IMG/VR virus record: IMGVR_UViG_3300024255_000159
Span: 1 to 24,381 of that record
Length of the DNA stretch: 24,381 bases
Strand: one strand, 5' to 3'
DNA from: a virus
Both the position numbers and the translations under genes were made by a program. Below, piece after piece: positions 1-15,257 of this stretch. The notes under the pieces were generated by a model. That model was given only the letters and a program-made list of their open reading frames with translations. It was not told the origin of the DNA and did not search any database. Numbering within the stretch: position 1 is the first letter of the stretch; every line of letters starts with the position of its first letter.

Positions 1-230
1 TGGGACATTTGCTTGATTAAGTATATCTTGGTGAAGTTATCCTTTTTCTTTATTTCGGACCATACACCATTAACTAATCTATTATAAGGATCAGTCCACT
101 TCATCATCAAACTCTGTTTTACAGATGCATCAGGATTACTGATATTACCACTCTGGAAGTTATTATCTTTATAGTATGATGTAATATATTCTACAATATC
201 TGGAGATAGTAGATCACTCTGCCATATCAT
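1..230 (-). CDS. 2OG-Fe(II) oxygenase, PKHD-like, N-terminal part only
   Basis: Only the first 76 residues are in the window; the gene runs off the left edge. The start is ATG at 230-228, preceded by AGAGGA five bases upstream, so this start is well supported. It overlaps the chaperone-domain gene upstream by 17 bases. The visible sequence has an acidic-aromatic helix (SPDIVEYITSYY) and then a segment (FQSGNISNPDASVKQS, residues about 25-40). That segment resembles the substrate-binding N-terminus of PKHD-type 2-oxoglutarate/Fe(II) hydroxylases, where 'W.dG..tag.qa..vK.N' is typical. The catalytic HxD/H residues would lie outside the window, so the enzyme class is inferred from the N-terminus alone. 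In T4-like cyanophages such oxygenases are common beside tail fibre genes and their substrates are unknown. An unrelated small virion protein remains possible. Confidence 0.6.
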   Translation of the reverse strand, partial: MIWQSDLLSPDIVEYITSYYKDNNFQSGNISNPDASVKQSLMMKWTDPYNRLVNGVWSEIKKKDNFTKIYLIKQMS

Positions 231-1158: not shown

Positions 1159-1820
1159 TAAGTTGACCCCGATTTGATATACCAACCTGTTACTATGTAT
1201 TTATTCTGCTCACCCATAACTAAATTGCCTTTATGCACATGTGTCATTCCCGCAGGGAATATAACTACTGTCCCAGTGGTAGGTTTAATCCTACGCAGTT
1301 GATATTGAAACTCCGTTTCTCCCCCATCTTCTATGTCATTTAGATAAATCATCCATGTAAGTTCTCTATGAGAATACGATGATGATGCATTTTCATAATG
1401 CCACAAGTGATATCCACCGCCAGGAGGTGTACGTTGAAATTTGATATCATTTGATACTAACCCAACTTTCTTTAGTTGAGAATACTCTTCAACATAATGA
1501 AGAGCACACGATTTTAAAAACTGATTTACTTGAGTGCCCCACTTGCTACTATGATAGTTTAGCATAAATGCCCTATCATGACGATTTTGTTTTCCATTAT
1601 ATCCGCTCGATCCATCCATAATATCAAGAGCTCCTGTACCAATACTATGAGCTACTGTATCATCTAAAACATCATTACCATACTTAATAAGTTGATCACA
1701 GAATGCTTTGGGAACAAATCCTTTCCATACTCCAATAAAATCTTCAAAATCTGATGATGTCAGATTAGAATCTAACATCAATTCAAGTGGCCTATAAGGC
1801 GCAAGTTCATTAGTTGACAT
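1158..1820 (-). CDS. 2OG-Fe(II) oxygenase (prolyl-hydroxylase-like), complete
   Basis: This is a 220-residue single-domain enzyme of the 2-oxoglutarate and Fe(II)-dependent dioxygenase superfamily (double-stranded beta-helix fold). Visible landmarks in order are F-Q-R-T-P-P-G-G-G-Y-H-L-W-H-Y-E at 128-143, giving the proximal HxE pair H141/E143 (H138 is an alternative). Next come W-M-I-Y-L-N-D at 156-162 and G-G-E-T-E-F at 166-171. The segment V-I-F-P-A-G-M-T-H-V-H-K-G at 186-198 supplies the distal histidine (H194 or H196). K207 within K-Y-I-V-T-G-W is a likely 2-oxoglutarate carboxylate contact. The proximal acid is Glu rather than the commoner Asp. No clear Shine-Dalgarno sequence precedes ATG 1820. 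It lies four bases after the collar chimera and overlaps the chaperone-domain gene by one base. Modification of a virion protein is a plausible but unproven role. Confidence 0.82.
   Translation of the reverse strand: MSTNELAPYRPLELMLDSNLTSSDFEDFIGVWKGFVPKAFCDQLIKYGNDVLDDTVAHSIGTGALDIMDGSSGYNGKQNRHDRAFMLNYHSSKWGTQVNQFLKSCALHYVEEYSQLKKVGLVSNDIKFQRTPPGGGYHLWHYENASSSYSHRELTWMIYLNDIEDGGETEFQYQLRRIKPTTGTVVIFPAGMTHVHKGNLVMGEQNKYIVTGWYIKSGST
1198..1205 (-). promoter_or_regulatory. Candidate T4-type late promoter (AATAAATA)
   Basis: On the minus strand this reads AATAAATA, matching the NATAAATA form of the T4-like late promoter (-10-like, TATAAATA in T4) used by cyanophages. It lies inside the 3' end of the oxygenase gene, 39 bases before the ATG at 1158. 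It could therefore give the chaperone-domain gene and the second oxygenase their own late transcript. An eight-base AT motif can arise by chance, so this is a candidate only. Confidence 0.4.
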
Positions 1821-1824
1821 AAAT

Positions 1825-4800
1825 CTAGAATGCTTTAATAATATACTTTGCTTTATGAAACTCTGGTGCTAGTGGCACTGTCCTGTTAGGAGAAAATACT
1901 ACGTCAGGAATAGGTTTCTTAACTGATGTATTTAGAGTAAATAATCCAGGATTTAATTCCATGCCAACATCACTCTGATTAAATGTGATGTTAAGTGTAG
2001 TCTGCGCTGATCCTAAACCTTCTTTACCATTGCCAGCACCTGACGTATTTCCGTATGTATAATCTTCGCTTGGATCAAGAACTGGTTGAGTCGTAATTAA
2101 ATGAGCATGAGTTTGTATACTTCCGTCGTCACCATCAAGAATAGGTGGAGAATAAGGGTCTATTCTTGTAAAATACTGATTAGTATCAAAAACACATGCA
2201 ACGTCACGACTACCAGTTCCAGCCTCCCCATCGGTGTCATAGAATCTGTTTAATAGACCTGTAGCGATCTCCATGTAATCATCAGAAACAACAGAATATG
2301 GTGATGGCCACCAGGTATTTGCCGAAATTACTAAAGCAGCTCTGTCACTAGCATCGATATTATTTGGGTTAAGTGATTGAATCATCTCCGTAACTAAAGT
2401 TATTAAATCAGGTTGATTGGCGATTTGATTCCATTCAGCTTCAAACTGTTGACTTTCGCCAATACTGTTCAATCTAGAGATCCAAGCATTTGCAATTGTT
2501 GTGGGGTTATATGCGTCCGGAGCATCATCTTCGATGGACAGCTGCCCCTGACCAATACCTCCACCAGAAACGGTGTGACTGTCTAATTTAGATGATCCTC
2601 TAGTGTCCCATTGGATTAGAGGATCTCCAGTTATTCCATCAGAAATTGCAGCGACATATAAATGACTATGAATAGGAACATTAACCGAAGTATCTAAAAG
2701 TGGTCCAACTAGAGCAGTTACACTACTGCTAGCAGCAACAGTAAAGTCAACATCTTGAGTAAGATCTTGTGCAAATACTGTTTTTACTGTACCAATAGAG
2801 AAGAAGTTACTCTCAATTCCTGTTGTATCATTAGTATCATCAGATACAATGATTTCATATGGATTATCTCCAGCAACATCAACATCATCAACATACCACC
2901 AACCACCAGTTCCGCCTGGTTCGTATATACTACTACCGCCATCAATAGGAAGAAATGCTGATGATGCTCTATTTCCATCAACTACACCAGTTCCCGAAAG
3001 TTTTCTATTTCTGTAATCTGGTAACTTAAAACTACTACCAGCACCACCATAATCATAACCAATGACATCAAATAAGAATGGATAATCATCTTTATCTAAT
3101 GTTTGTCCCGCACACTCATAATATCCTGGATATCGTGATGATCTACTACCATCTAATAGACCATAAGTACCATTAGGTTGCTTGAGAATAGTTATAATAG
3201 TACCAATAGCATGACCATCTTCCTTACTTTCTTTAATATCACCGTTGCTATCAACATAAGCACCTTTCTTACTATACCACGCACCTTTGAGATCTGGTGG
3301 TGGTGGAGCAACAGCATAGTTACTTACTTGCCAAATAAATTGATTTGGTGATCCAGTACCAATACTAACTGTTGTTTGCTTTGAATCGGATAATCCACTA
3401 CCGGTAGTAATAAAGACACGGAACGAAGTATGAATAGTAGGATCAAATGTAACCGGGCCAGCAACTGGAGTAGCAAAGTCAATAGAAATAAGACCACCAT
3501 TTGTTGCATTGATGGTTATTGGTCTATTGATACCCGAAACACTGACAATACTACTTAATACTTCTGTATTAGGAACTTGATTAACAAGATTGGTAGGTAT
3601 TGAAAATACAGCATCAGTATCTGGTCCAGAATTAGTAGTAATACTCCAAGGATCAAGAACTCTCTGACCGACTTTAATAGTAGTTGTTACTACTGATGGC
3701 GTTAAAGAAGTTGAAAATGTTCCCGAAGACCTATTGTATAGTACAATCCTATCCCCATTGTTTACTTTTGTTGGGAACAATCCGATAGAACTCTCACCTC
3801 CCTCTGCATACTGAATCTTAATTCTTGGTTCATCTCCACCAGAATCATTAGAAGAAGTACTGCTTACCAACACAACATCAACTTCTACATTTGTACCTAA
3901 TTCGCTAATGGATCCTGGAGTATCATTAGGATCTGGTGCTGGAGCAGAGGCAATTAGTGCATCTTCTAATACATCAGTTTGATTAACAAAACTGAAATCT
4001 TTTGGTGTAGTTGATGGGAAATTTCCATTGCTTACACTCCAGATAGATCCACTTGCCCCATCACCAATAGATAGTGGATTTGACGACACAGCACCTGCAG
4101 TATTTTCAGTTACAATATACAACTGCAAATATTGACCGTTATTAATTGTTGGTGCAGGAACGTCGGATACTAATTCAAAAACAGTATTACTTAAAATCTC
4201 ATAACCATTTGTATCAGTGAAAAATGTATTAGTATCAGATACTCCTACGTATAAATTAGAGTTTGTTGATGCAATTATTGCAGTATCATTTAATCCCTGA
4301 ACTTGTATAATATTACTATAAACAGCCGTATTTAATGGTTGATTAGTAAGATCATCGAAGTCTGGAAATGGTACAGGAACATTAGGAGGTGTTACTTTCG
4401 CATTAATAGTCCAACGTTCTGACCTTGCTCCAATAGTAAGATCAACATATGACGATAATCCAGGAATAGAATTAGATTTTAACCTAGTTTGGATTTGATC
4501 TGTATTCTTTACAGTAAGTGCTCCTGGATTAGGCAGCTGCCAATCACTAAATTCTGTTTCTCCATCTGATACTTTCTTATATCTGATAGAGAAGTTTTCG
4601 GATAATGCAGGAGCAGATCCAGTAACAGTAACGCTTGCTTCTGTAGACGTAGTTAAACCAACAATAGTGAGAATGCTTTCTCCGGGTCTACTTCCATCTC
4701 CATAGACATACATGATACCTGCATCTGCATCATCAAGAGTCTGAAATGGATATGGATCAGGAGCAAAATCTTCTGGTATCGTAGTGATATACCAGACCGT

Positions 4801-4926
4801 TGTTTGCTCACCAATCTGAATAGTTACACTTTGAGTAGTGTTCCACTGTGAGGGTGCTTTAAATTTAAAGCGAACTGTTTGTCCTTCGCTTACATATACT
4901 GGTGTATTAGAAAAAGAATATGTCAT
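1825..4926 (-). CDS. 1033-residue tail fibre-like protein: beta-sandwich repeats plus tail collar domain
   Basis: The start at ATG 4926 follows the only sizeable gap in the window. Residues 1-540 are a chain of beta-rich segments. Two related units share W-(T/S)-I followed by an 'N-T-x-V-x-S-x-I-x-x-V-x-G-(L/I)-N' block, near residues 172-213 and 427-467. A proline spacer (P541-P544) leads to a phage tail collar domain at about 571-650, with G-Y-Y-E-C-A-G-Q-T-L, D-Y-P-F-L-F-D-V-I-G, Y-G-G and F-K-L-P-D-Y-R-N-R. The rest is a long C-terminal region with H-S-H (753-755) and T-H-A-H (939-942), ending in K-Y-I-I-K-A-F. HxH pairs in T4 gp12 and gp37 coordinate metal in trimeric fibres. The ending resembles those of the two small collar proteins in this window. 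It is probably a trimeric fibre or baseplate-tip protein; its exact virion position is unknown. Confidence 0.8.
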   Translation of the reverse strand: MTYSFSNTPVYVSEGQTVRFKFKAPSQWNTTQSVTIQIGEQTTVWYITTIPEDFAPDPYPFQTLDDADAGIMYVYGDGSRPGESILTIVGLTTSTEASVTVTGSAPALSENFSIRYKKVSDGETEFSDWQLPNPGALTVKNTDQIQTRLKSNSIPGLSSYVDLTIGARSERWTINAKVTPPNVPVPFPDFDDLTNQPLNTAVYSNIIQVQGLNDTAIIASTNSNLYVGVSDTNTFFTDTNGYEILSNTVFELVSDVPAPTINNGQYLQLYIVTENTAGAVSSNPLSIGDGASGSIWSVSNGNFPSTTPKDFSFVNQTDVLEDALIASAPAPDPNDTPGSISELGTNVEVDVVLVSSTSSNDSGGDEPRIKIQYAEGGESSIGLFPTKVNNGDRIVLYNRSSGTFSTSLTPSVVTTTIKVGQRVLDPWSITTNSGPDTDAVFSIPTNLVNQVPNTEVLSSIVSVSGINRPITINATNGGLISIDFATPVAGPVTFDPTIHTSFRVFITTGSGLSDSKQTTVSIGTGSPNQFIWQVSNYAVAPPPPDLKGAWYSKKGAYVDSNGDIKESKEDGHAIGTIITILKQPNGTYGLLDGSRSSRYPGYYECAGQTLDKDDYPFLFDVIGYDYGGAGSSFKLPDYRNRKLSGTGVVDGNRASSAFLPIDGGSSIYEPGGTGGWWYVDDVDVAGDNPYEIIVSDDTNDTTGIESNFFSIGTVKTVFAQDLTQDVDFTVAASSSVTALVGPLLDTSVNVPIHSHLYVAAISDGITGDPLIQWDTRGSSKLDSHTVSGGGIGQGQLSIEDDAPDAYNPTTIANAWISRLNSIGESQQFEAEWNQIANQPDLITLVTEMIQSLNPNNIDASDRAALVISANTWWPSPYSVVSDDYMEIATGLLNRFYDTDGEAGTGSRDVACVFDTNQYFTRIDPYSPPILDGDDGSIQTHAHLITTQPVLDPSEDYTYGNTSGAGNGKEGLGSAQTTLNITFNQSDVGMELNPGLFTLNTSVKKPIPDVVFSPNRTVPLAPEFHKAKYIIKAF

Positions 4927-4986: not shown

Positions 4987-6684
4987 TTATATGTTCTCTA
5001 CGTCAATCCACACACCATTATTGTCAATCTCTACCTGAATAGGATAATCAGATTTGATTTCTACAGGGATATCAATATCAGTGACTAATAGTTCTTCTGT
5101 TGTTAATTCTATGTTAGGAGTTACAATAGGTTCTTCATTCTTAAAAGTATCATCCGATTCTGGTACTGTAATAGAATCTGGAAGTTGATCTATTATAGCA
5201 GGAACTATTTTAACATCTTCATCTGTTAATGAACCAGCTCCCTCTGCAAGTAACTTGTACTCGATTCTTGCAGGTCCACGATTATCCCATACAGGAGTGT
5301 GTGTAATAGTACCGCTAACATTATCACCTGTTGGTAATACCACATCCGCACCTATAGTTTCTACACCATCTAACGAGTAGTAATATGGCACTATCTTTAG
5401 TGATGTCGTAGCATTAATTGATGTATACCCCAACTCTAAACTATTTCCATAACTAACATTTAAAGGAACTATTAAATCAACTTCTGGTGGTTGCAATACG
5501 GTTAATGTAATCTGATCAGTATCAGTTCCACCTAAACCAGACACAGTTGCAGTATACGTAGTAGTTACAGTTGGAGAAACTGTTACCTGGGATACTAAAT
5601 TACTAGAACCAATTCCGGGTTGTATATTATTAGTTGAGGCGTCACCAGTAGTATTCCAACTTAATATTGCAGATTGTCCTAAAACGATAGTGCTGTTGTT
5701 AAGACTTAACGTAACAATAGGAGGAATATAAACTGTAGCAGTTACAGTTCTAGTTGTTGAACGACCACTCCTAGAAACAATTAAAGTGTAAGTAGTAGTA
5801 TTAGTAGGACAACTTACAGTGCTTCCATCTACACTAACTGCTCCAATACCTTGATTAATGCTAGCACTCGTCGCATTTGTAGATGACCAAGACAATGTAG
5901 TACATTGCCCACGTATAAATGCTGTCGGACTTAACGAAAAACTGTCAATTGTAGGATTTGAGATGTCATAATAAACAATTGCGAATCCATTACCATAATT
6001 TATTGTATTGTTATTAAGACTACAATAACTACTATCATAACCAGATCGACCACCCTGACCACCACCGCCGCCGCGATTGTTATCAATGCCAAATGAACCA
6101 CCACTACCACCGCCGCATCCACCACCGCCGCCACCACCACCGCCGCCATCAGGACGACCTGATGGTTGACTAGTATTTTTTTGACCATTGCTACCAACAC
6201 TGCGATTGTTTGGATTGCCAGACAGTCCTCTACCAGCACCGCCAGTACCACCACTGCGATTCAACGAAGCGCCTCCACCGCCACCACCGCCGCCTACAAT
6301 AACAACCCATCCATTTTTTAAAGAATCGTAAATACCACTGGCACCACCACCGCCACCACCAGCACCAGAATATCCATTATTAGCAGAATTTCCACCTATA
6401 CCACCGCGAGCAGCGTTTGAACTACCTGCACTACCACCACCGGCATTGGATCCGGTTCTTCCGGTGCCTCCTTGTCTTCCGATATAAAAATTTAATGTTC
6501 TAGCAGTATAATTAGGAAAAGAAATAGTTGCTCTTCTTCCACCACCACCTTGTCCAGCATTGGCACCAGCATCGTTGCCACCCCCGCCACCGCGAGATCC
6601 AGCAATATCAACACGAACATTAATCGCATAACTTGGAATTTGTACTGATCCGTTGCTGTTAAATGTTTGCTGAAAGTCTGCCAT
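4987..6684 (-). CDS. Adhesin-like array gene 5: glycine-rich head, Ig-like repeats, shared C-terminus
   Basis: A 565-residue protein, last of five tandem paralogs. Residues 1-30 form a beta opening with a V-Q-I-P motif (14-17). Residues 31-235 are glycine-rich: G-G-G-G-G-A-S-G at 111-117, then W-V-V-I-V and a run of eight glycines, and a run of ten glycines before Cys190. The 'GGGGGGAS...VIVGGGGG' pattern recalls both the Gly_rich family of the ALK/LTK ectodomain and poly-glycine phage adhesins such as gp38 of T-even relatives. Two Ig-like domains follow at about 245-322 and 323-400, with L-S-W and T-T-T-Y-T motifs. A third beta domain spans about 400-500. The acidic shared tail (505-565) ends D-I-D-I-P-V-E-I-K-S-D-Y-P-I-Q-V-E-I. 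One base separates it from the gene upstream. Receptor binding is inferred from composition and context. Confidence 0.8.
   Translation of the reverse strand: MADFQQTFNSNGSVQIPSYAINVRVDIAGSRGGGGGNDAGANAGQGGGGRRATISFPNYTARTLNFYIGRQGGTGRTGSNAGGGSAGSSNAARGGIGGNSANNGYSGAGGGGGGASGIYDSLKNGWVVIVGGGGGGGGASLNRSGGTGGAGRGLSGNPNNRSVGSNGQKNTSQPSGRPDGGGGGGGGGGCGGGSGGSFGIDNNRGGGGGQGGRSGYDSSYCSLNNNTINYGNGFAIVYYDISNPTIDSFSLSPTAFIRGQCTTLSWSSTNATSASINQGIGAVSVDGSTVSCPTNTTTYTLIVSRSGRSTTRTVTATVYIPPIVTLSLNNSTIVLGQSAILSWNTTGDASTNNIQPGIGSSNLVSQVTVSPTVTTTYTATVSGLGGTDTDQITLTVLQPPEVDLIVPLNVSYGNSLELGYTSINATTSLKIVPYYYSLDGVETIGADVVLPTGDNVSGTITHTPVWDNRGPARIEYKLLAEGAGSLTDEDVKIVPAIIDQLPDSITVPESDDTFKNEEPIVTPNIELTTEELLVTDIDIPVEIKSDYPIQVEIDNNGVWIDVENI
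5561..5597. repeat. 37-base exact repeat, copy in array gene 5
   Basis: Identical to 7257-7293 and 8633-8669. It lies in the second Ig-like domain and codes the V-S-P-T-V-T-T-T-Y region. Three identical copies in array genes 3, 4 and 5 point to recent duplication or gene conversion. Confidence 0.85.
5645..5736. repeat. 92-base exact repeat, copy A
   Basis: Base-for-base identical to 7341-7432 by direct comparison. It codes the first half of the second Ig-like domain (IPPIVTLSLNNSTIVLGQSA and onward). Flanking bases diverge, so the identity is a patch and not a whole-gene duplication. Confidence 0.88.
6061..6160. repeat. CCN trinucleotide-rich tract coding poly-glycine
   Basis: A low-complexity run of CCA/CCG triplets on the plus strand, read as GGN glycine codons on the minus strand. 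It encodes the densest glycine stretch of array gene 5 around Cys190. It is the most GC-rich patch of an otherwise AT-rich window, and copy-number slippage here could change head length in multiples of one residue. Confidence 0.7.
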
Positions 6685-6685
6685 T

Positions 6686-8062
6686 TTAGATCTCTCTTAT
6701 ATTCGTCCAATTATCAGATTGATTAAGATCAACTTGAATAGGATAATCTGCTTTAACTTCAACAGGTATATCAACATCATCAATCACAATTTTTTCCGTA
6801 GTAACTTCAACATCTGGAGAGATAATAGGGGTTTCGTTTTTAATCTTGTCATCAGATTCTGGTATTTCAATGTTAAATGGCATTTGATCAATATCAACAT
6901 TGACTGTAATCGATTCAGAATCGGTTAAATTACCAGGTCCAATTGCATATAAAATATATGCAATAGACGATGGTCCTCTATTGTTATATGGAACATTATG
7001 AATATATGTGCCATCGGCAGACGCAGATGCTCCCAAATCAACGAGGTCATTAGTAATATTACCATCCAAATCTGTCATTGCAATCTGCAACTCATATGCA
7101 ATCGTAGCTCTTTCTTGCTCATGTGTTAACACAACATTCTCTCCATAAGTAACTCTTATTGGACCATTTAAATTTACTTCTGGTGGAGGAAATACAGTCA
7201 GTGTAATCTGATCACTATCAACTCCACCAACACCAGAAGCAGTAGCAGTATATGTTGTAGTTACAGTTGGAGAAACTGTTACCTGGGATACTATATTACT
7301 GGGACCGATGCCAGGTTGTACGTTTACCGTTGAAGCATCGCCAGTAGTATTCCAACTTAATATTGCAGATTGTCCTAAAACGATAGTGCTGTTGTTAAGA
7401 CTTAACGTAACAATAGGAGGAATATAAACTGTTAATGTTTTTGCGACTGCACGAGTACCGCCTAGCCCACTTGCAGTTAGTATATACGTTGTTGTACTAT
7501 TGGGAGAAACTGTTCTAGATCCTGATGTACCTACTGATCCAAATATATTAATATATCTAGATGTACTTCTAGATGTGCTCCAACTAACTGTGGCATTTTG
7601 TCCTCGAATAATAGATGATGGACTAATGCTTAAAGATACTGTTGGTGGATAGTAAGTACATGAACCATCATTAAATGTTGCACTAGGATTATAGTTGCTA
7701 GCCTGACTATCTGTACACCCAGGAAAAGGACAGTTAGCCCCGAGTCCTAAATTTGTATGCCTTCCTTGAGATTGAACATTCTGTAGTTCACCACTTCCAC
7801 CCTGATTCCTGTCACCACCAGCTCGGACCATTTGGTAGATACTACTAAAACCACCTCTAGTAGGGTGATATACCCACGTACCTACGTATCTTTCTACACC
7901 ACTCTGTTCTCCATATCTACCAAACAAACTATAATATGCAGATGTAACTTGATTGCGAACGGGGTCATTAAAATCACCACCGCCACCAGGCCACCATAGT
8001 TGTCCCCTATCACAAATATATATATTTCCGTAACGATTGTAATGACTATAGCGATAAGGCAT
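6686..8062 (-). CDS. Adhesin-like array gene 4: DUF4214-like head, Cys/Asn module, Ig-like repeats, shared C-terminus
   Basis: A 458-residue protein, the shortest array member and the only one without either a glycine-rich or a DUF5648-like head. Residues 1-110 are aromatic and arginine-rich. The piece S-A-Y-Y-S-L-F-G-R-Y-G-E-Q-S-G-V-E-R-Y-V at 41-60 resembles DUF4214 ('LY..LLGR.pd..Gl.yWv'), a weak match. Residues 115-137 form a G-C-T-D-S-Q-A-S-N-Y-N-P module closed by G-S-C-T-Y, a motif frequent in secreted and virion proteins. Two Ig-like domains (about 140-218 and 219-296), a third beta domain and the acidic shared tail follow, ending T-N-I-R-E-I. The gene upstream overlaps by one base (TAATG). 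It shares a 92-base exact repeat with array gene 5 and a 63-base one with array gene 3. A host-binding tip role is inferred. Confidence 0.76.
   Translation of the reverse strand: MPYRYSHYNRYGNIYICDRGQLWWPGGGGDFNDPVRNQVTSAYYSLFGRYGEQSGVERYVGTWVYHPTRGGFSSIYQMVRAGGDRNQGGSGELQNVQSQGRHTNLGLGANCPFPGCTDSQASNYNPSATFNDGSCTYYPPTVSLSISPSSIIRGQNATVSWSTSRSTSRYINIFGSVGTSGSRTVSPNSTTTYILTASGLGGTRAVAKTLTVYIPPIVTLSLNNSTIVLGQSAILSWNTTGDASTVNVQPGIGPSNIVSQVTVSPTVTTTYTATASGVGGVDSDQITLTVFPPPEVNLNGPIRVTYGENVVLTHEQERATIAYELQIAMTDLDGNITNDLVDLGASASADGTYIHNVPYNNRGPSSIAYILYAIGPGNLTDSESITVNVDIDQMPFNIEIPESDDKIKNETPIISPDVEVTTEKIVIDDVDIPVEVKADYPIQVDLNQSDNWTNIREI
6691..6698 (-). promoter_or_regulatory. Ribosome binding site of array gene 5 inside the end of array gene 4
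   Basis: AAGAGAGA on the minus strand, six bases before ATG 6684, includes the Arg and Glu codons of the terminal R-E-I. It is weaker than the equivalents in front of array genes 2-4. Confidence 0.45.
7105..7167. repeat. 63-base exact repeat, copy in array gene 4
   Basis: Identical to 8481-8543. It codes the start of the third beta domain (GPIRVTYGENVVLTHEQERA). Similarity continues beyond the exact stretch into the preceding linker. Confidence 0.87.
7257..7293. repeat. 37-base exact repeat, copy in array gene 4
   Basis: Second of three identical copies (with 5561-5597 and 8633-8669) in the second Ig-like domain. Confidence 0.85.
7341..7432. repeat. 92-base exact repeat, copy B
   Basis: Partner of 5645-5736. 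The segment immediately downstream in the coding direction (7294-7340) has diverged between the two genes while this block has not. This is the pattern expected of localised exchange. Confidence 0.88.
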
Positions 8063-9612
8063 TATAGTTGCTCCACATCTACATACACACCACTGTCGCC
8101 TATTTCTACCTGAATAGGAGCATCTGCTTTGATTGCTACCGGTATATCAATATCATCGATAAGGATTTGCTCACTAGTAACTTCAGCATCTGGGGAGATA
8201 ATGGGTGCTTCGCTTTTAATCTTGCCATCAGATTCTGGTATTTCAATGTTAAATGGCATTTGATCAATATCAATATTAACTTCAATAGAGTCCGAATCTG
8301 ACAAATTGCCGGGCCCAACAGCATATAGAGTATATAGTATAGACGATGGTCCTCTGCTATTATACGGAACATTATGAATATATGTGCCATTGCCCAACGC
8401 AGACGCTCCTAAATCAACGAGTTCAGTAGTCATATCACCATCCAAATCAGTTAGTAAAATCTGCAACTCATATGTATCAATAGCTCTTTCTTGCTCATGT
8501 GTTAACACAACATTCTCTCCATAAGTAACTCTTATTGGACCATCTAATTTTACTTCTGGTGGAGGAAATACAGTCAAGGTAATCTCATCACTATCGGTTC
8601 CCCCCAAACCAGACACAGTTGCGGTATATGTTGTAGTTACAGTTGGAGAAACTGTTACCTGGGATACTAAATTAGCAGAACCAATTCCAGGTTGTATGTT
8701 ATTAGTTGAGGCGTCACCAGTAGTAGTCCAAGACAATATAGTAGACTGACCCAAATTAATAGATTGCGAAGCTAGTGATAACGTAACATTTGGGGGGATA
8801 TAAACTACTAAAGTTTTAGTACTAGTATTACTAGTGATGCCATAATAAGATGCGCTTATAGTATATGTCGTATCATCATTAGGAGATACAATAGTAGAAC
8901 CACTAGCAGCAATAGCACCTACACCACTTAATGATCTACTAGTAGCATTACTAATAGACCAAGATAATGTAGCATTTTGTCCTTGAATAATAGATGATGG
9001 TGATATTGTGAAACTAATACTGGGAGTAGGATAGGAACATCCACTATTAACATTAGCCCTTGGATTGTAGTTACTAGCACGACTATCAGTGCATCCATAG
9101 ACATTATATGTACATCCTGTGCTGACCTGATTTGCATATGGGTTAAAATTATTAGCACTAGAGTCTTTACAACCATATACAAATACAGGAGAATACCACG
9201 CAACACCTGCAAAGCTGTATCCCGATGGCGCAGAAGAACTGGTCTTAAACTTATGATCTACCAGTTGAGCATTATAAAATCTATAAACTGGTACACGATA
9301 TGCTCCAGGACTAGTATATGCATGACCAATAATACCTTCATAAACATAACCAGAAGGAGTGCTGGAATTAGTTTTGTAAAAGTGATTATATTGAGTTGGA
9401 TTCCAATATCGATATACAGGTGCAACAGCCCCAACGATTCCAGGAACGCTGCCAGACATAAAAAGATTCCAAACACCAGTGGATACAGCACTATATGCAG
9501 TGATTTGTTCGCCGCCAGGGTTTGAAGTATAGAAAGTATCCGCTCTAAAATAACCAGGATTGAAAGTAGCGTAAAAAGAATCGAATGTATGTAAATTACC
9601 GGAAGTTCCCAT
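8062..9612 (-). CDS. Adhesin-like array gene 3: DUF5648-like head, two Cys/Asn modules, Ig-like repeats, shared C-terminus
   Basis: A 516-residue protein. After an unrecognised lead (1-62), residues about 66-145 hold two tandem units, P-V-Y-R-Y-W-N-P...N-H-F-Y-K-T and P-V-Y-R-F-Y-N...D-H-K-F-K-T. Each is followed by S-G-Y and an aromatic-G segment. This is the pattern of DUF5648, a lectin-like repeat of extracellular proteins. Two modules of the form G-C-x-D-S-x-A-x-N-(F/Y)-N-P-x-A...G-C-x-Y follow at 147-169 and 173-194. The common architecture comes next: Ig-like domains (about 197-275 and 276-353), the third beta domain and the acidic tail, here ending V-D-V-E-Q-L. It overlaps the next gene by one base and lies two bases after the previous one. 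A carbohydrate-binding tip is a reasonable inference from the DUF5648-like repeats. Confidence 0.8.
   Translation of the reverse strand: MGTSGNLHTFDSFYATFNPGYFRADTFYTSNPGGEQITAYSAVSTGVWNLFMSGSVPGIVGAVAPVYRYWNPTQYNHFYKTNSSTPSGYVYEGIIGHAYTSPGAYRVPVYRFYNAQLVDHKFKTSSSAPSGYSFAGVAWYSPVFVYGCKDSSANNFNPYANQVSTGCTYNVYGCTDSRASNYNPRANVNSGCSYPTPSISFTISPSSIIQGQNATLSWSISNATSRSLSGVGAIAASGSTIVSPNDDTTYTISASYYGITSNTSTKTLVVYIPPNVTLSLASQSINLGQSTILSWTTTGDASTNNIQPGIGSANLVSQVTVSPTVTTTYTATVSGLGGTDSDEITLTVFPPPEVKLDGPIRVTYGENVVLTHEQERAIDTYELQILLTDLDGDMTTELVDLGASALGNGTYIHNVPYNSRGPSSILYTLYAVGPGNLSDSDSIEVNIDIDQMPFNIEIPESDGKIKSEAPIISPDAEVTSEQILIDDIDIPVAIKADAPIQVEIGDSGVYVDVEQL
8071..8074 (-). promoter_or_regulatory. Ribosome binding site of array gene 4 inside the end of array gene 3
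   Basis: GGAG on the minus strand, eight bases before ATG 8062, formed by the V-E codons of the terminal V-E-Q-L of the preceding protein. It supports the TAATG-coupled start. Confidence 0.6.
8481..8543. repeat. 63-base exact repeat, copy in array gene 3
   Basis: Partner of 7105-7167 in array gene 4, at the equivalent position in the third beta domain. Confidence 0.87.
8633..8669. repeat. 37-base exact repeat, copy in array gene 3
   Basis: Third identical copy (with 5561-5597 and 7257-7293) in the second Ig-like domain. Confidence 0.85.
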
Positions 9613-9614
9613 AT

Positions 9615-11306
9615 CTAAATCTCCCTGATATCTACGTAGATTCCACTATCATCAATCTCAAGCTGTATTGGATAATCTGCTTTAACTTCAACAGGTATAT
9701 CAATATCATCAACAAGAAGTCGCTGACTAGTAACTTCAACATCAGGTGTTACAACAGGTTCTTCATTCTTAAAAGTATCATCAGTTTCTGGAATGTCAAT
9801 GGCATCAGGCATTCTGTCAATGTTGATTGATACTTGTTCAATATCTTCCGCAGTCAATGAACCCTCACCTATAGCATATAATTTATATTCTATAATAGTA
9901 GGTCCAAGATTATTATAAGTTGGTGTGTGTATCACATCTCGATCAACTACATCTGCAATAGGAAGATCTTCCACAAGTTCATAGTCAGTATATGTATTGT
10001 CAGCGTAATAATATCTTACTAATAATTGTAGAGATGTGGTAGCATTTTCGGATTGTACATTGAGATTAATATTTTCACCATAATCAACAGATAAAGGATA
10101 CGTTAATGTTATTACAGGAGGTGTAATAACAGTAACAGTAACTTGATCGGAACCTTGACCTGCTAATGGATGAGAAGCAGTTATTGTATATGTCGTAGTT
10201 GTAGTTGGAGATATTTGGATTGGAGTTGACTGAATATTAATAGGACCAATGCCAGGAGAAATTTGTGCTAAAGAAACATCTCCAGTAATAGTATATTCTA
10301 AAAAGGTAGATTGCCCTTGTATTATTGTATTATCAGTAGCAGTTGTTGTAAGAGTAGGGATTGGTGGAATAAGAACATCAACACTTATGGATTGTGAAGT
10401 AGTTCCTCCAGGTCCAAATGCACTTAATGTATATGTTCTATCATTAACAGGTTGTATTGTGATGCCAGGAGGTGACTGATTTTGTGGTTGATTGCCACCA
10501 AAATCAGTCAAAGAAACAGTAGTTACATAACCAGTAATTTGATATGTTAGTTGAGCACTGCCGCCTCGAACAATTTGATCAGGACTAATTGTAAAATACT
10601 GAATATTTGGTTTAGCATAATCAAACGACAACGTATAGAATCCGTCACCATAATTACTATATCCACTATTATAAGTCCATTGATAATAACTTCCATTGCT
10701 ATACCAAGCAGAATTTCCTCCAATACCAGCATATCCATTGGTGGTTGTTGCACCACCTAACCCACCGGCACCGCCAGTAGAAGATCCTCCACCACCACCA
10801 CCACGGTGACCTGCAGGAGCATTCCCACCATTTCTTCCACCTATTCCACTTGTTGTACCTCCACCACCAATACCACGACCAGCAGTATAATATCCACCAT
10901 AACCAGTATTGTTATCAAATCTACCAGCGCCGCCACCACCACCAACAATGACAGTATATCTGTTCAATCCACCGTCATATACTCCTGATGCTCCACCTCC
11001 ACCGCCACCAGAACGGTAACCATTACCACCACTTGCTAGCGGAGAATAACCACCAGATCCACCAGGGTTAGCTGGTCCTTGTCCTTTTGATCCTTCTCGA
11101 CCCATGTAAAACGTCAGATTATATGTATAGTCACGACTAGTTAATCTAAAATCACCAGATCTACCAAAACCACCACGAGAATGATTCCATGTAGTAGATG
11201 CTGATCCACCACCTGATGCAGCTCCTATACTAAATCTTACATTCGTAGATCCTGCTGGTATTTGAATAGTTCTCTGTCCAGATCCCCTTCCCGAATAACT
11301 TGGCAT
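9615..11306 (-). CDS. Adhesin-like array gene 2: glycine-rich head, Ig-like repeats, shared C-terminus
   Basis: A 563-residue protein with nearly the same length and plan as array gene 5. The opening has I-Q-I-P at 14-17. F-Y-M-G-R-E-G at 66-72 is matched by F-Y-I-G-R-Q-G in array gene 5. The glycine-rich core spans about 72-200, with G-G-G-G-G-G-A-S-G-V-Y-D at 100-111 and Y-T-V-I-V-G-G-G-G-G at 117-126. Tyr, Asn and Ser fill the gaps between glycine runs, and there is no Gly-X-Y collagen periodicity. Ig-like domains at about 233-318 and 319-400, the third beta domain and the acidic tail follow, ending V-D-I-R-E-I. The ATG shares a base with the TAA stop of array gene 1 and has a good Shine-Dalgarno sequence (GAGGG). 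Its head is clearly homologous to that of array gene 5, although two genes with other heads lie between them. Confidence 0.8.
   Translation of the reverse strand: MPSYSGRGSGQRTIQIPAGSTNVRFSIGAASGGGSASTTWNHSRGGFGRSGDFRLTSRDYTYNLTFYMGREGSKGQGPANPGGSGGYSPLASGGNGYRSGGGGGGASGVYDGGLNRYTVIVGGGGGAGRFDNNTGYGGYYTAGRGIGGGGTTSGIGGRNGGNAPAGHRGGGGGGSSTGGAGGLGGATTTNGYAGIGGNSAWYSNGSYYQWTYNSGYSNYGDGFYTLSFDYAKPNIQYFTISPDQIVRGGSAQLTYQITGYVTTVSLTDFGGNQPQNQSPPGITIQPVNDRTYTLSAFGPGGTTSQSISVDVLIPPIPTLTTTATDNTIIQGQSTFLEYTITGDVSLAQISPGIGPINIQSTPIQISPTTTTTYTITASHPLAGQGSDQVTVTVITPPVITLTYPLSVDYGENINLNVQSENATTSLQLLVRYYYADNTYTDYELVEDLPIADVVDRDVIHTPTYNNLGPTIIEYKLYAIGEGSLTAEDIEQVSINIDRMPDAIDIPETDDTFKNEEPVVTPDVEVTSQRLLVDDIDIPVEVKADYPIQLEIDDSGIYVDIREI
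9621..9626 (-). promoter_or_regulatory. Ribosome binding site of array gene 3 inside the end of array gene 2
   Basis: AGGGAG on the minus strand, eight bases before ATG 9612, formed by the R-E codons of the terminal R-E-I. It is the strongest Shine-Dalgarno match in the array. Confidence 0.68.
9730..9811. repeat. 82-base exact repeat, copy in array gene 2
   Basis: Identical to 11421-11502. It codes the acidic linker IPETDDTFKNEEPVVTPDVE and its flanks. A second nearly identical stretch follows in both genes, coding the D-I-D-I-P-V-E-V-K-A-D-Y block. Confidence 0.87.
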
Positions 11307-12895
11307 TAGATTTCCCTCACATTAATGAATGTTCCGCTGTCATCAATCTCAATCTGTATTGGATAATCTGCTTTAACTTCAACAGGTATATCAATATCAT
11401 CAATAACAATTTGATCTGTCGTAACTTCAACATCAGGTGTTACAACAGGTTCTTCATTCTTAAAAGTATCATCAGTTTCTGGAATGTCAATGGCATCAGG
11501 CAGTTGGTCGATAATGACAGGAACTTCAATAGTATCAGTTGCTGTCAAACTACCATATCCATCTACAGTAAACTCTAGTCGCACTTTAAATGGACCAAAA
11601 TCATTATATTCAATAGGAATATTATATAGATCTACTTCTACTTCATCTCCAGTAGTATTAGGTATTGCTACAGAAGGTTTAAACTCGTTAGTTCCATCTA
11701 GATATAGATATTCAGCAATGTAACTAATACCACCATCAGAATTTGTAGCGGTAATAGTTATTGGTACATTTTCTCCATACAATATATTAAGAGGACCACT
11801 TACACTGATAGTTGATGGTTGCAAAACTGTTACTAGTAATTCAGAAGAACCAGTTCCTCCTAATCCTGAAGCAGTAGCAGTATATGTTGTCGTTATGGTT
11901 GGAGATACTACCGCTTGACTATTAAGAGCAGAAGAACCAACACCAGGTTCAATAAGGAGCGAGTTAGCATCACCAACTACAGTCCAAGACAATATAGTAC
12001 TGTTTCCTTGTACTATAGTGTAAGTTGGTGGGTCGGATTCTGGGTCCTGATCACCAGCAGATGCTGATAATGTTATTACCGGTTCTATGTATACGTTAAC
12101 AAGAACTGTATCTGACCTACTATATGCAGGGTTTGAAGCGGTTAATCTAAATTCACTAGTTTCTGTAGGAGCAACGACAAACGAGTTATTAGTCCTATTT
12201 ACTTGTCCATATGATTCAACAACAGCGCCATTTCGCAGTCTTTCTAATACTTCAGAATCAGAATCTCCACCACCAACCGTCCAAGATAACGTTGTTTGAG
12301 CATTATTTCCATCAGTTCCATTTAATCGAAAAGCACCAGGATTAGCACTGATTGATGGTAACGGTGCATCATATGTACAAACACACCCAAAAAATCCTCC
12401 AGAAGCACCATATCTACAGTTACCACTTCCTCCTTGTGTTCCTCCGTATCCTATACGAACATAAACATTTTGTCCTGCTATAGCACCACTAGTTCCTCTA
12501 GATTTTGTACAGCAAGATGCACCACCGCCTCCTCCACCATATGAACTAGATGCTCCTCTCCACTGACCAGATCCACCAGATCCATAACTCGAATATCCAG
12601 AGGCAGCTCTATTCCACGGACCACCACCGAATCTACCTGATTGACCACTACGCCAGTTACCACTACCACCATATCCAGGACTGTATAAACTACCTGCTCC
12701 ACCACCATAAGATATAACTCCACCGGCACAAGTATATCCACCTGCTTGTGGAGCAGTAAAGTTTCCACTGAAAACTGGAATGTTAGGGTAACCACCACCG
12801 CCACCACCAGCTACAGTGATATAAGTCATGGTCTTTACATCTGTTGGTACTTGAATATTACCACTGCTAGACCTACCTATAGAATAGCTTCCCAT
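11306..12895 (-). CDS. Adhesin-like array gene 1: Cys-containing glycine-rich head, Ig-like repeats, shared C-terminus
   Basis: A 529-residue protein, first in the array. The opening has I-Q-V-P at 14-17 and I-T-V-A-G-G-G-G-G-G at 26-35. The glycine-rich head runs to about 175. Unlike the other glycine-rich heads it is rich in Trp, Arg and Tyr and carries six cysteines (56, 128, 129, 160, 171, 173), including C-C and C-V-C. The G-G-G-G-G-A-S motif is present at 121-127. The first Ig-like domain (about 179-270) is diverged and longer than in its paralogs. The second (about 272-360) is canonical, with G-N-S-T-I-L-S-W and T-T-T-Y-T-A-T-A-S-G. The third domain and acidic tail end I-N-V-R-E-I. A 12-base gap without a good Shine-Dalgarno sequence precedes the ATG. 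It is probably a virion adhesin; the cysteines may be unpaired, bridged or metal-bound. Confidence 0.79.
   Translation of the reverse strand: MGSYSIGRSSSGNIQVPTDVKTMTYITVAGGGGGGYPNIPVFSGNFTAPQAGGYTCAGGVISYGGGAGSLYSPGYGGSGNWRSGQSGRFGGGPWNRAASGYSSYGSGGSGQWRGASSSYGGGGGGASCCTKSRGTSGAIAGQNVYVRIGYGGTQGGSGNCRYGASGGFFGCVCTYDAPLPSISANPGAFRLNGTDGNNAQTTLSWTVGGGDSDSEVLERLRNGAVVESYGQVNRTNNSFVVAPTETSEFRLTASNPAYSRSDTVLVNVYIEPVITLSASAGDQDPESDPPTYTIVQGNSTILSWTVVGDANSLLIEPGVGSSALNSQAVVSPTITTTYTATASGLGGTGSSELLVTVLQPSTISVSGPLNILYGENVPITITATNSDGGISYIAEYLYLDGTNEFKPSVAIPNTTGDEVEVDLYNIPIEYNDFGPFKVRLEFTVDGYGSLTATDTIEVPVIIDQLPDAIDIPETDDTFKNEEPVVTPDVEVTTDQIVIDDIDIPVEVKADYPIQIEIDDSGTFINVREI
11314..11318 (-). promoter_or_regulatory. 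Ribosome binding site of array gene 2 inside the end of array gene 1
   Basis: GAGGG on the minus strand, seven bases before ATG 11306, overlapping the codons for the terminal V-R-E-I. It supports the start that overlaps the preceding stop codon. Confidence 0.65.
11421..11502. repeat. 82-base exact repeat, copy in array gene 1
   Basis: Partner of 9730-9811. The bases just outside both ends differ, which defines a sharp block of identity. Confidence 0.87.
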
Positions 12896-12907: not shown

Positions 12908-13807
12908 CTAAAATTTGATAATATAATGAACTAAAATAAATGGTGTAACAACTTGATTTAATACATTTAAATTTTCAACATCCACATCTACATAAGATTC
13001 CATATCATCTAGAGGAACATCAATATTGTTATACGTATATGTAAAATCACTAGTATATGTATAGGGTCTTGTAATTGTGTGATCGTGTCCCGGTTCACCT
13101 GTAGGAACATTTAAAGAAGTTTCTTCTAGACTATTTCCCGCAGAAGCATTTGCGGTGTTAGCTCTAGGTCCTTTACCGTCACCACCAGTAGCATGAGTAA
13201 CTGTTTTATTTAAAACTGTAAATCCACCGCCGCCACCAGCATTATGATAATGACCTTGAAATTCATCAATAGAAAGAGTGGTTGCACTGGTATTTCTAGG
13301 AATATTAAACCTAGGAGTTCCATTAAAGTTAGCAATATCAGAGGAGATTACCATATTTCCGATATAGTTTACTGTTGCTCTATCTCCAATATTGGTGAGA
13401 GGTTCTACTTCAACACCGACTTTACTAACACCAGCATCATCTTCCAAAGTTGTAGAAAAATACTCTCCAGATCCTCTACTACCAATAATTACTTTTGATC
13501 CTAAATCGGGAAGTTGAAACTGACCAAGATCATTTGTTGCAATATCAGGATTTCTCACATTAGTCGAAGGTTTTTTGAATCTAGAATCATCTCCTACTCC
13601 CAAAATTTGTGACAGTAAGTAAAAATCTTTTGCATTTTTTACTGTTCCATCACATTTTAAAAATCCCCCAGGCATAGTATTTTTAAATATTGCAGTAGTT
13701 GGATCATTGTTAAATCCCAAACCATGAACGGTATGCATTTGAATGGTTCCGGGAATTCCGCCCCAGTTAGATTTGTTGTGAGTATAGTTACTAGTTCTCG
13801 TTACCAT
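12908..13807 (-). CDS. Small phage tail collar domain protein (299 residues)
   Basis: The start at ATG 13807 has AGGG nine bases upstream and lies one base after the preceding stop. The tail collar domain occupies residues about 38-108: P-G-G-F-L-K-C-D-G-T-V, D-F-Y-L-L-S-Q-I-L-G and F-Q-L-P-D-L-G-S-K-V-I-I-G. Two histidine pairs follow, G-H-Y-H at 185-188 before a G-G-G-G-G run and G-H-D-H at 240-243. In T4 gp12 an HxH pair binds zinc at the trimer axis, so these are candidate metal sites. The C-terminus, I-L-V-H-Y-I-I-K-F, matches the Y-I-I-K/R ending of the other two collar proteins in the window. It is probably a short-fibre or fibre-tip component made as a homotrimer. Its position between the giant protein and the adhesin array suggests the connection region, which is inference. 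Confidence 0.82.
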   Translation of the reverse strand: MVTRTSNYTHNKSNWGGIPGTIQMHTVHGLGFNNDPTTAIFKNTMPGGFLKCDGTVKNAKDFYLLSQILGVGDDSRFKKPSTNVRNPDIATNDLGQFQLPDLGSKVIIGSRGSGEYFSTTLEDDAGVSKVGVEVEPLTNIGDRATVNYIGNMVISSDIANFNGTPRFNIPRNTSATTLSIDEFQGHYHNAGGGGGFTVLNKTVTHATGGDGKGPRANTANASAGNSLEETSLNVPTGEPGHDHTITRPYTYTSDFTYTYNNIDVPLDDMESYVDVDVENLNVLNQVVTPFILVHYIIKF

Positions 13808-13808
13808 T

Positions 13809-15257
13809 TTAGTATGCCCTGATAATGTATATTGAAGTTACTCTTGGTTGTTGAATATTAAAATCAATTTGTAATGCATTTCGATTTGCCACATTATCAA
13901 GGGTAGCATTTGGCATGTTAACACTTGCAGTTAAGTTGCTTTGAGGTCTCATTCTACTACTATCAAATGCTACATCAAACTCGTCATGAGTATGTGCAAC
14001 AATCGGAGCACCAGGAGATTCATTTAGTTCAGTAAAACCAAGTCCAGGATTACTCACAAGTGTATCACCAACGGTATTGTCAGATGTTGTATAATAATTT
14101 GTAAATCCTTCAGGAATGCCAACAGTATTTCCTCCTATACCCGCAGGAACATTGCCCGAAATATATTTAGAATACCCATCAACACTAATAAATTCTTCAG
14201 TTAGGGGAGTTCTAGATAAAAACGCTGGTTTCATATTAATAGGCGGTTGCTCTGAATGTGCTTTTCCAAGCGTTTTACCAGGTTGACCTTCACCAAAACC
14301 ACTAGGAATATCATTGCCAGTGGGCCATAGTAAAGTCCATGTATCAACAACATTAGCATCTTGTGGTGCAGGGGTGTTTGCACCGGTCGTTCCAGCAGTC
14401 GTCAATCTACCAGCTACGATACCACCATATATGTTAGAGGTTCCAGCAGGTGTTATAGAGACGTTTGAGGTTCCGTTGCCCGTCCCAGCTGGGGAATCAT
14501 TTTGCCAACCTTCGTCGTCAGACCAACCAAAGTAAAACGCCACTCCCTTCGCTTCATCACCACTGACGGGATCGTCACTATCGGACGATTGTCCATCGTT
14601 ATCAGTACCTTGAGCAAAAAGAGTGTAATAAACTGGATCATAAGGAACTACTCCTTGTCCAGGTTTCGCATTATTACGACTATCAATAGTTTCTAAAGAT
14701 CCTAAATGAGTATGTCTCTTAATATGCGCTCTACCTAACTTTCTTGGTCCAGGGTAAATAGTTACAAATCCTTCCCCATCAATTTTTGTATTTCCTTGTA
14801 TTCTACCTGCATATCCAGATCTGTCATCATTATTAATATTAAAAACTAAATCAACAAAAACATCAGTAAAAATAGTAGTTACTCCAGCATCTTCATTTGT
14901 TCCGATGATAGGGTCCATTAAGATCAATGCTTTTGGATCTACATCCGCAAGACGACCAGTACCGCCAGCACTAAACTCGGCAAAATATGATGATTCCATA
15001 TCAATCAATGTTTTACCATTGAGATTAGGCATTTTAATGTTACCCACATAACCAGGAAAATTACCATCAAAATCGCTGTTGCCAGCATTATAAGTGTCTC
15101 CAATTGCTTGTGCTAATAACGGAAAATCATTAGCAGAGATACTCTGACCATCACAAATAATCCATCCAGAGGGGATTGATGTCAATCCCCCAGTCCATGG
15201 CATAATGGTGCCAATAGCAGCACCTCTTGCAGTTTTAGTTTCTTGATAGAAAGGCAT
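13809..15257 (-). CDS. Phage tail collar domain protein (482 residues)
   Basis: It begins at ATG 15257, four bases after the giant gene; the upstream bases are A-rich with no clear Shine-Dalgarno sequence. The collar domain is at residues about 13-88: G-T-I-M-P-W-T-G, P-S-G-W-I-I-C-D-G-Q-S-I, D-F-P-L-L-A-Q-A-I-G and I-K-M-P-N-L-N-G-K-T-L-I. A long Asn/Asp/Gly-rich stretch follows. Histidine pairs R-H-T-H (181-184) and A-H-T-H (421-424) bracket it, and the end is I-Y-I-I-R-A-Y. A locally acidic, GC-richer part lies around residues 215-265. The architecture matches gp12-like short tail fibre and collar proteins of myoviruses. I cannot say whether it is the gp12 equivalent or an accessory fibre. 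The collar call itself is secure. Confidence 0.83.
   Translation of the reverse strand: MPFYQETKTARGAAIGTIMPWTGGLTSIPSGWIICDGQSISANDFPLLAQAIGDTYNAGNSDFDGNFPGYVGNIKMPNLNGKTLIDMESSYFAEFSAGGTGRLADVDPKALILMDPIIGTNEDAGVTTIFTDVFVDLVFNINNDDRSGYAGRIQGNTKIDGEGFVTIYPGPRKLGRAHIKRHTHLGSLETIDSRNNAKPGQGVVPYDPVYYTLFAQGTDNDGQSSDSDDPVSGDEAKGVAFYFGWSDDEGWQNDSPAGTGNGTSNVSITPAGTSNIYGGIVAGRLTTAGTTGANTPAPQDANVVDTWTLLWPTGNDIPSGFGEGQPGKTLGKAHSEQPPINMKPAFLSRTPLTEEFISVDGYSKYISGNVPAGIGGNTVGIPEGFTNYYTTSDNTVGDTLVSNPGLGFTELNESPGAPIVAHTHDEFDVAFDSSRMRPQSNLTASVNMPNATLDNVANRNALQIDFNIQQPRVTSIYIIRAY

Follow-up and report, generated by a model that had tools for sequence, protein, structure and literature searches.

The window analysed here comprises all 24,381 bases of IMG/VR record IMGVR_UViG_3300024255_000159, a fragment of a T4-like cyanomyovirus whose gene order matches the fibre region of S-PM2, Syn1, S-CAM1, and S-CAM3. 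Five complete open reading frames (ORFs; 565, 458, 516, 563, and 529 amino acids) lie head to tail on its minus strand at 4987-12895, in a slot bordered by a tail-collar gene on one side and a gp12-like fibre gene (GC740) on the other. Their four junctions consist of two 1-nt overlaps and gaps of 1 and 2 nt. All five proteins share a common ending, namely a chain of immunoglobulin-like (Ig) domains, then a linker that is 32 residues long in every case (of which 7-10 are acidic and 1-2 basic), and lastly a C-terminal peptide, invariably of 36 residues, carrying D-[IV]-D-I-P-V. The PHROG 2155 profile matches most of each protein (5/5, E 5e-135 to 3e-201) and the DNA repeat families D1, D2, and D5 map to the shared part of the genes, placing the likeness of the five far beyond chance. 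A preliminary description of the locus, made from the bare sequence, had proposed five intact tandem genes with a common C-terminal order, and this is what was found.

In order to examine the parts of these proteins, structures were modelled as single chains for P0001 (mean predicted local distance difference test score (pLDDT) 86.8, predicted template modelling score (pTM) 0.55) and P0002 (mean pLDDT 85.5, pTM 0.48), both with the family alignment. Each model contains a mostly confident head followed by three Ig-like sandwiches, then the linker (pLDDT ~41-54) and the C-terminal peptide (~54-72 as a monomer). The third beta domain recognised earlier is present, and both models show it as a further Ig-like sandwich. 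In the fold search, the modelled Ig chains matched other tandem Ig proteins at Z near 10, a common result. The shared C-terminal chassis of the preliminary description held for the last 68 residues, which are common throughout; Ig2 and Ig3 are mosaic, and Ig1 mostly goes with the head. Head lengths measured 137-242 residues across the five genes, correcting the earlier span of 110-235, and the three head types distinguished by eye (glycine-rich, DUF5648, and small alpha/beta) form five sequence clusters at the threshold used.

The P0003 head matches DUF5648 in Pfam (E 2.6e-11). Of the three glycine-rich heads in the window, that of P0001 was modelled, and the model (residues 1-241) matched the ALK/LTK glycine-rich domain (Z 14.9, root-mean-square deviation (rmsd) 3.8, 188 residues aligned) and a tail-tip chain of mycobacteriophage Bxb1 (Z 10.4, rmsd 3.0, 149 aligned). 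A sequence profile also reaches ALK at E 6e-4, where no single stretch passes alone and glycine content may help. The P0001 head is accordingly modelled as a tumour necrosis factor (TNF)-like/glycine-rich fold, as in the receptor tip of a known myocyanophage fibre; since that protein, Pam3 gp24, is not among the 50 fold matches listed for the model, the link goes via ALK and the published description (PMC9608196). Across the family Pfam names few heads (DUF5648, a DUF4114-like match below the cut-off, PA14 in a fused protein, and Gly_rich_2). Two further assignments were rejected. Head cluster 0 of the relatives has an invariant D-x-S-G-S-M, which would suggest the metal-ion-dependent adhesion site of a vWA head; VWA profiles matched none of its 14 members (E up to 1), and a profile search of the Protein Data Bank returned three matches, to Ig-type proteins and a carbohydrate-binding module (E 0.006-0.02). 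DUF4214 gave one weak match among 32 proteins (E 0.047) and none for P0002, so the P0002 head was left unnamed. Between the head and the Ig chain, genes 3 and 4 in transcription order (6686-9612, minus strand) carry a cysteine motif of the type G-C-[TK]-D-S-x-A-x-N-[YF]-N-P, and comparable motifs are present in other heads of relatives.

Using tblastn the family was detected in 49 of 50,697 phage records (35 Synechococcus phages, 11 labelled 'Cyanophage', two Prochlorococcus phages, and one marine virus from a single-cell sample), and the collar gene in 59. Ten records have a collar match without an array, and in the five fetched the slot holds other genes or none. Further loci came from three viral-contig scans, two of which contributed their best 80 matches each. 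The profile of the shared C-terminal end, hereafter the tail, yielded 482 matches in 191 loci; 22 loci were set aside because the set already included their contig, a record nearly identical to it, or the window. Wherever the bordering genes are present, tails lie after the collar gene and before GC740 in all locus orders listed, and in 14 complete array-carrying phage genomes all 44 tail matches at E <= 0.001 fall within the slot. Five more distant genomes gave no tail match (three) or one weak match each (two), and a plasmid search with P0001 returned no match. The sole genome-contig match, L218 (NYYP01000039.1, filed under an Opitutia metagenome-assembled genome), was rejected as a tail outside these phages, as it is identical to the array-carrying IMG/VR contig L056; that metagenome-assembled genome therefore contains viral DNA.

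A total of 96 arrays, not dereplicated, were complete between the collar and GC740 genes. They hold one (2 arrays), two (10), three (67, the mode), four (8), five (7), or six (2) tails. Array genes are spaced at a median of -1 nt, with 179 of 185 gaps within 20 nt, and 16 of the 96 arrays contain fused ORFs with at least two modules and an internal tail. At L171:6659-13447, four head-tail modules are fused in an ORF of ~2,260 codons with acidic stretches between the modules.

Comparison of related genomes for differences in heads and copy number, as recommended in the preliminary description, showed variation in both: next to the variation in tail number, 34 sequence clusters of heads were distinguished, arranged in 47 different orders among the 96 arrays, and no cluster occurs twice in any of them. 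Single linkage, used at first, had lumped together 345 of 430 heads; the clustering adopted instead is stricter and uses the first 130 residues, leaving out 50 of the 482 modules that were open at the start and two that were too short. All head counts depend on the clustering threshold, and the three glycine-rich heads of the window separate at the one used. When heads were shuffled within first, middle, and last positions, 6.9 of 46 arrays (dereplicated at 85% flanks) were expected to repeat a cluster and none did (approximate P 0.0004); at 70% clustering and the coarsest dereplication the effect was weaker (0 of 26 against 3.8, approximate mean P 0.009). Relatedness inflates the expected number of duplicates because this null shuffles heads across lineages. 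As relatedness and clustering threshold both affect the test, the absence of repeated heads is taken as suggestive of selection for mixed sets, not as proof.

Tandem paralogs with gene conversion are common in phages, and the locus could be viewed as ordinary tandem duplication and divergence, its head diversity lacking any display function. Against this, of the 515 array pairs whose collar identity is below 0.5, 147 have a head cluster in common, so that clusters cross lineages, and, as noted, none recurs within an array. We consider this explanation extremely unlikely.

Head order was identical in 46 of 47 array pairs whose flanks match at 98% or more; the figures are 12 of 21 for flanks at 95-98% and 14 of 27 for flanks at 90-95%. 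Seven differing pairs were mapped (two share L018 and two share L001), with breakpoints defined as BLAST alignment ends and hence approximate. The S-RIM44 isolates L017 and L018 (flanks 96.9-99.6%) have different middle genes, the replacement running from the gene start to a point 27 nt before the tail, and their first array genes are just 85% identical; the exchange between L137 and L018 has the same 3' point. In the ACG-2014j group (L001/L012 and L001/L186) the break lies within the tail, 13 nt from its edge. L024 matches the window at 96-98% identity in the flanks and has three array genes against the window's five; the third of them couples the window gene 3 head, through a junction in Ig2, to the rest of window gene 5. 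A single whole gene, gained or lost, separates L085 from L204. As a control, L163 has the head order of the window and is 99.6% identical across the array. These mapped exchanges between closely related phages bear out the earlier proposal of swapped N-terminal heads on a common C-terminus; with heads exchanged by recombination, the array is a strong candidate for how these viruses vary what they bind.

The tails follow a different course. Tails of one array have a median identity of 0.64, compared with 0.53 for same-head genes of different arrays and 0.46 overall. In a comparison of the window with S-CAM3, ortholog heads are 0.63 and non-ortholog heads 0.31 identical, while tails are 0.58 identical in both classes and have therefore lost the ortholog signal. 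Among 404 ortholog pairs, the tail was closer to its array mates than to its ortholog in 301, Ig2 in 220, Ig3 in 157, and Ig1 in 35. Silent four-fold sites in tails agree at 0.56 within arrays, 0.46 between same-head genes, and 0.43 between random pairs (0.39 expected from composition), so that gene conversion contributes to tail likeness. Per-array values range from 0.34 to 0.89, and the tails of window genes 1 and 2 agree at 18 of 19 four-fold sites. At the protein level the tail is the most constrained part (ratio 0.51 versus 0.76-1.09).

In transcription order, the minus strand encodes a 3,036-residue protein, a gp12-like fibre, the tail collar protein, the five array genes, GC740, a 2OG-Fe(II) oxygenase, and the tail assembly chaperone (Table 1). 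The 3,036-residue protein has no Pfam match at E 0.01, and no Rfam family was found in the window. A late promoter inside the array, sought by the S-PM2 motif NATAAATA (PMC2984593), was rejected: ATAAATA occurs once in the window versus 9.95 times expected by shuffling, and the single copy (1198-1204, minus strand) lies outside the array, ~12 nt upstream of the tail assembly chaperone ORF. In the S-PM2 record sixteen tRNA genes are annotated within the 11.3-kb fibre gene (L008:929-12268, NC_006820.1); the S-PM2d record has tRNA genes upstream of the fibre gene and none within, and the S-PM2 coordinates may be misplaced.

Table 1. Array genes, their parts, and neighbouring genes in the window; array genes are numbered in transcription order.
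Feature	Length or residues	Position	Strand	Family or remark
Array gene 1, P0005	529 aa	11306..12895	-	phrog_2155
P0005 glycine-rich head	1-176	12368-12895		
P0005 Ig chain	177-461	11513-12367		
P0005 linker	462-493	11417-11512		
P0005 C-terminal peptide	494-529	11309-11416		
Array gene 2, P0004	563 aa	9615..11306	-	phrog_2155
P0004 glycine-rich head	1-231	10614-11306		
P0004 Ig chain	232-495	9822-10613		
P0004 linker	496-527	9726-9821		
P0004 C-terminal peptide	528-563	9618-9725		
Array gene 3, P0003	516 aa	8062..9612	-	phrog_2155
P0003 DUF5648 head	1-193	9034-9612		
P0003 Ig chain	194-448	8269-9033		
P0003 linker	449-480	8173-8268		
P0003 C-terminal peptide	481-516	8065-8172		
Array gene 4, P0002	458 aa	6686..8062	-	phrog_2155
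P0002 small alpha/beta head with Cys motif	1-137	7652-8062		
P0002 Ig chain	138-390	6893-7651		
P0002 linker	391-422	6797-6892		
P0002 C-terminal peptide	423-458	6689-6796		
Array gene 5, P0001	565 aa	4987..6684	-	phrog_2155, E 3.1e-201
P0001 glycine-rich head	1-242	5959-6684		
P0001 Ig chain	243-497	5194-5958		
P0001 acidic linker	498-529	5098-5193		
P0001 C-terminal peptide	530-565	4990-5097		
Ig2 stretch of gene 3		8519..8755	-	one side of L024 crossover
Ig2 stretch of gene 5		5447..5683	-	other side of L024 crossover
Tail collar protein (upstream border)		12908..13807	-	phrog_4714; T4-GC 736 in relatives
gp12-like short tail fibre, Collar domain (downstream border)		1825..4926	-	phrog_4924; T4-GC 740 in relatives
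gp12-like short tail fibre		13809..15257	-	phrog_4591; T4-GC 735 slot
Large protein	3036 aa	15262..24372	-	T4-GC 734 'short tail fiber' slot
Tail assembly chaperone		214..1185	-	phrog_4697

The locus is probably a cassette array of co-produced, tail-associated adhesins that dock by their C-termini and hold their N-terminal heads outermost. Each gene would encode a modular fibre consisting of an N-terminal binding head, an Ig-like stalk, a flexible acidic linker, and a C-terminal docking peptide, and all members would be produced together from one tightly packed gene string. The shared tail would bind a partner specific to each phage within the baseplate/tail-fibre complex, probably an adjoining collar or gp12-like fibre, with the head outermost. 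Each array would present a set of different heads; new heads would arrive by homologous recombination, often using tail DNA (~200 nt) or Ig2 DNA as a handle, and recombination between copies would keep tails alike within a genome while adding, removing, or fusing genes. We infer virion presence, receptor binding, C-terminal docking, and the identity of the docking partner. A tail that is constrained, genome-specific, and exclusive to the slot, following a flexible linker under freely varying heads, is most simply accounted for if the tail docks and the head binds.

The opposite orientation, in which the tail is a receptor tip common to all members and the heads are attachment modules as in T4-type fibres, deserves consideration since N-terminal attachment is usual, e.g. 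in Pam3 gp24 (PMC9608196) and Ackermannviridae spikes (PMC11414711), and genome-specific tails would also suit one shared host receptor. It sits poorly with tails that are internal to the fused ORFs, the next head following, and with the tail being the most constrained part. Furthermore, at least one head has a known receptor-tip fold and others have DUF5648, DUF4114-like, or PA14 (fused) matches, while the tail is short, lies beyond the low-confidence linker, and is itself modelled at modest pLDDT as a monomer. On balance the reversed arrangement appears quite unlikely.

Simultaneous production of the array proteins is argued for by the tight gene packing together with the lack of inversion or reverse-transcriptase machinery in relatives. 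Reverse transcriptase (PF00078) was detected in none of eight complete relatives (control positive in 3/14), as was serine recombinase (PF00239; 0/8, control positive in 10/14), the window's own genome being represented by a fragment only. The preliminary description had left simultaneous display and a stock of alternative tips side by side; gene spacing and these absences indirectly favour co-production over a silent stock. Were the genes alternatives used one at a time, switched by inversion, reverse-transcriptase retargeting, or recombination during growth, the mutual recombination of copies on evolutionary time would be in keeping with it. Speaking against such a stock are the intact, single-strand, tightly packed genes of the window, the same spacing in relatives, and the inverted repeats of the window, the longest pair of which spans 33 nt at 73% with arms 7 kb apart. 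It is regarded as very unlikely.

Several observations count against an array of exchangeable receptor-binding adhesins. The nearest tail lies in the same array for 67 of 147 tails and in a same-head gene of another array for 55, so that homogenisation is partial, and some arrays, e.g. S-CAM3 (0.44), have no four-fold excess. P values are approximate, since the array pairs compared lack independence. Faster evolution of heads than of neighbouring genes was not found (0.76 versus 0.76 for the collar and 0.79 for GC740). Most of the 20 head representatives scanned had no head match above the Pfam cut-off, and L182 and L189 differ by ~0.7 kb inside a head with tail and Ig2 uninvolved. RefSeq annotates all three S-PM2 array genes as 'virion structural protein'; in the S-PM2d GenBank record only the middle array gene is so named and the other two are 'hypothetical'. 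In an evolution experiment with S-PM2d, the main text of the report names mutations in d218, d219, d220, and d224 and none in the array genes d221-d223 (PMC9910659), contrary to expectation for main receptor binders.

The last point also suits a rival explanation, namely that the array encodes virion whiskers or decoration that bind carbohydrate, particles, or virions, or tune adsorption, the main receptor being bound by another locus. The S-PM2d coevolution main text names mutations of the neighbours, and the paper points to another block, S-PM2d175, as a putative adhesin (PMC9910659); moreover, the slot holds other or no genes in the five distant relatives. On the other side, the fold of one glycine-rich head is that described for the receptor tip of a myocyanophage, and gp12-like fibre genes surround the slot, with the tail assembly chaperone gene nearby. 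A role of this kind is accordingly judged unlikely.

With regard to a docking partner, tails track GC740 divergence more than collar divergence (Spearman 0.76 versus 0.60, 40 arrays), and this holds for the gene next to the collar (partial 0.30 versus 0.05). GC740 is the best docking-partner lead for this reason, and linkage or shared ancestry could cause the same pattern. A more specific and doubtful proposal is that the 36-residue peptide corresponds to the first half of a beta repeat in the GC740 fibre; docking would then occur by completing or swapping into that repeat, and the adhesins, held by strand complementation, would form a rack of reversed polarity. A repeat profile built mostly on GC740 proteins and run on the array ORFs placed its eight best matches without exception in the tail, aligned to the first repeat half, with a best E of 0.034 and four real matches under E 1 versus two in the reversed control; profile-profile comparison of tail and repeat gave 4-19% probability. 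Owing to this weak profile evidence, homology was rejected as established and is kept only as a speculative docking case. If true, the fibre of a marine phage would bear a set of interchangeable heads, one of each kind. Related features are present in Sf-FR1 and Sf-CH1b_30. In the distant relative Sf-FR1 (L217:10402-10578, plus strand) a stand-alone 58-residue ORF in the same slot weakly resembles the tail (E 4.9e-4), shortly after a glycine-rich gene without a tail match. In Sf-CH1b_30 (L214:6691-8736) the gene after the collar has several beta repeats, of the type carried by GC740 proteins, whose first half resembles the array tail.

According to a 2010 review, several T4 tail genes, among them g12, g34, g35, and g37, had not been found in cyanomyoviruses, and some of the missing fibre proteins may be explained by unknown structural proteins (PMC2984593). 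The array is a concrete candidate for part of this gap. It offers separable modules (head, stalk, and docking tail), each testable alone, and natural pairs of close phages that differ chiefly in a head, along with a DNA handle for head movement.

The proteins themselves were known before as 'virion structural protein' entries, without function. By sequence and slot the window genes are members of phrog_2155 / phrog_29022 / phrog_9770 (T4-GC 737, 738, 739, 1047, and 1048), entries that give no function and no head/tail cassette anatomy and that PHROGs files under head and packaging. Phages with many receptor-binding proteins are also known, among them the Alcyoneusvirus members RaK2 and phiK64-1. 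Their adsorption complex, a complex host-recognition apparatus of one phage, is likened to the array by description only (PMC10253068). The preliminary description knew of no named system with this layout, which agrees with the available text of the open-licence papers searched (including PMC3037559, PMC10665884, and PMC8651126), where the cassette system is not described; the genes do form a known PHROG and GenBank family, and multi-adhesin phages exist, albeit of opposite polarity.

The Ackermannviridae tailspike protein complex is similar in having several binding-protein genes, conserved docking and exchangeable binding parts, and homologous recombination (PMC11414711), and the 96 arrays contain adjacent sets of one to six modules, whose receptor binding is putative. 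Its docking parts, XD and TD, are N-terminal and its variable binding parts C-terminal (PMC11414711), whereas the shared part of the array is C-terminal. The Pfam output for the five window proteins contained no gp10-like XD/TD domains, a fold that was not searched for. Pam3 gp24 and T-even gp38-type adhesins have a TNF-like and glycine-rich tip (PMC9608196), and the P0001 head model has the ALK-type fold to which gp24 is reportedly similar; gp24 has an N-terminal helical dock and a distal C-terminal tip (PMC9608196), in contrast to the predicted N-terminal tip on an Ig stalk in the window. The catalogue entry of the proteins and the existence of multi-adhesin phages were known before; on the best reading, what differs here is a shared C-terminal dock, opposite in polarity to that of the multi-spike phages already known. 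Should docking occur as proposed, the array would add a multi-adhesin phage design with a conserved C-terminal dock.

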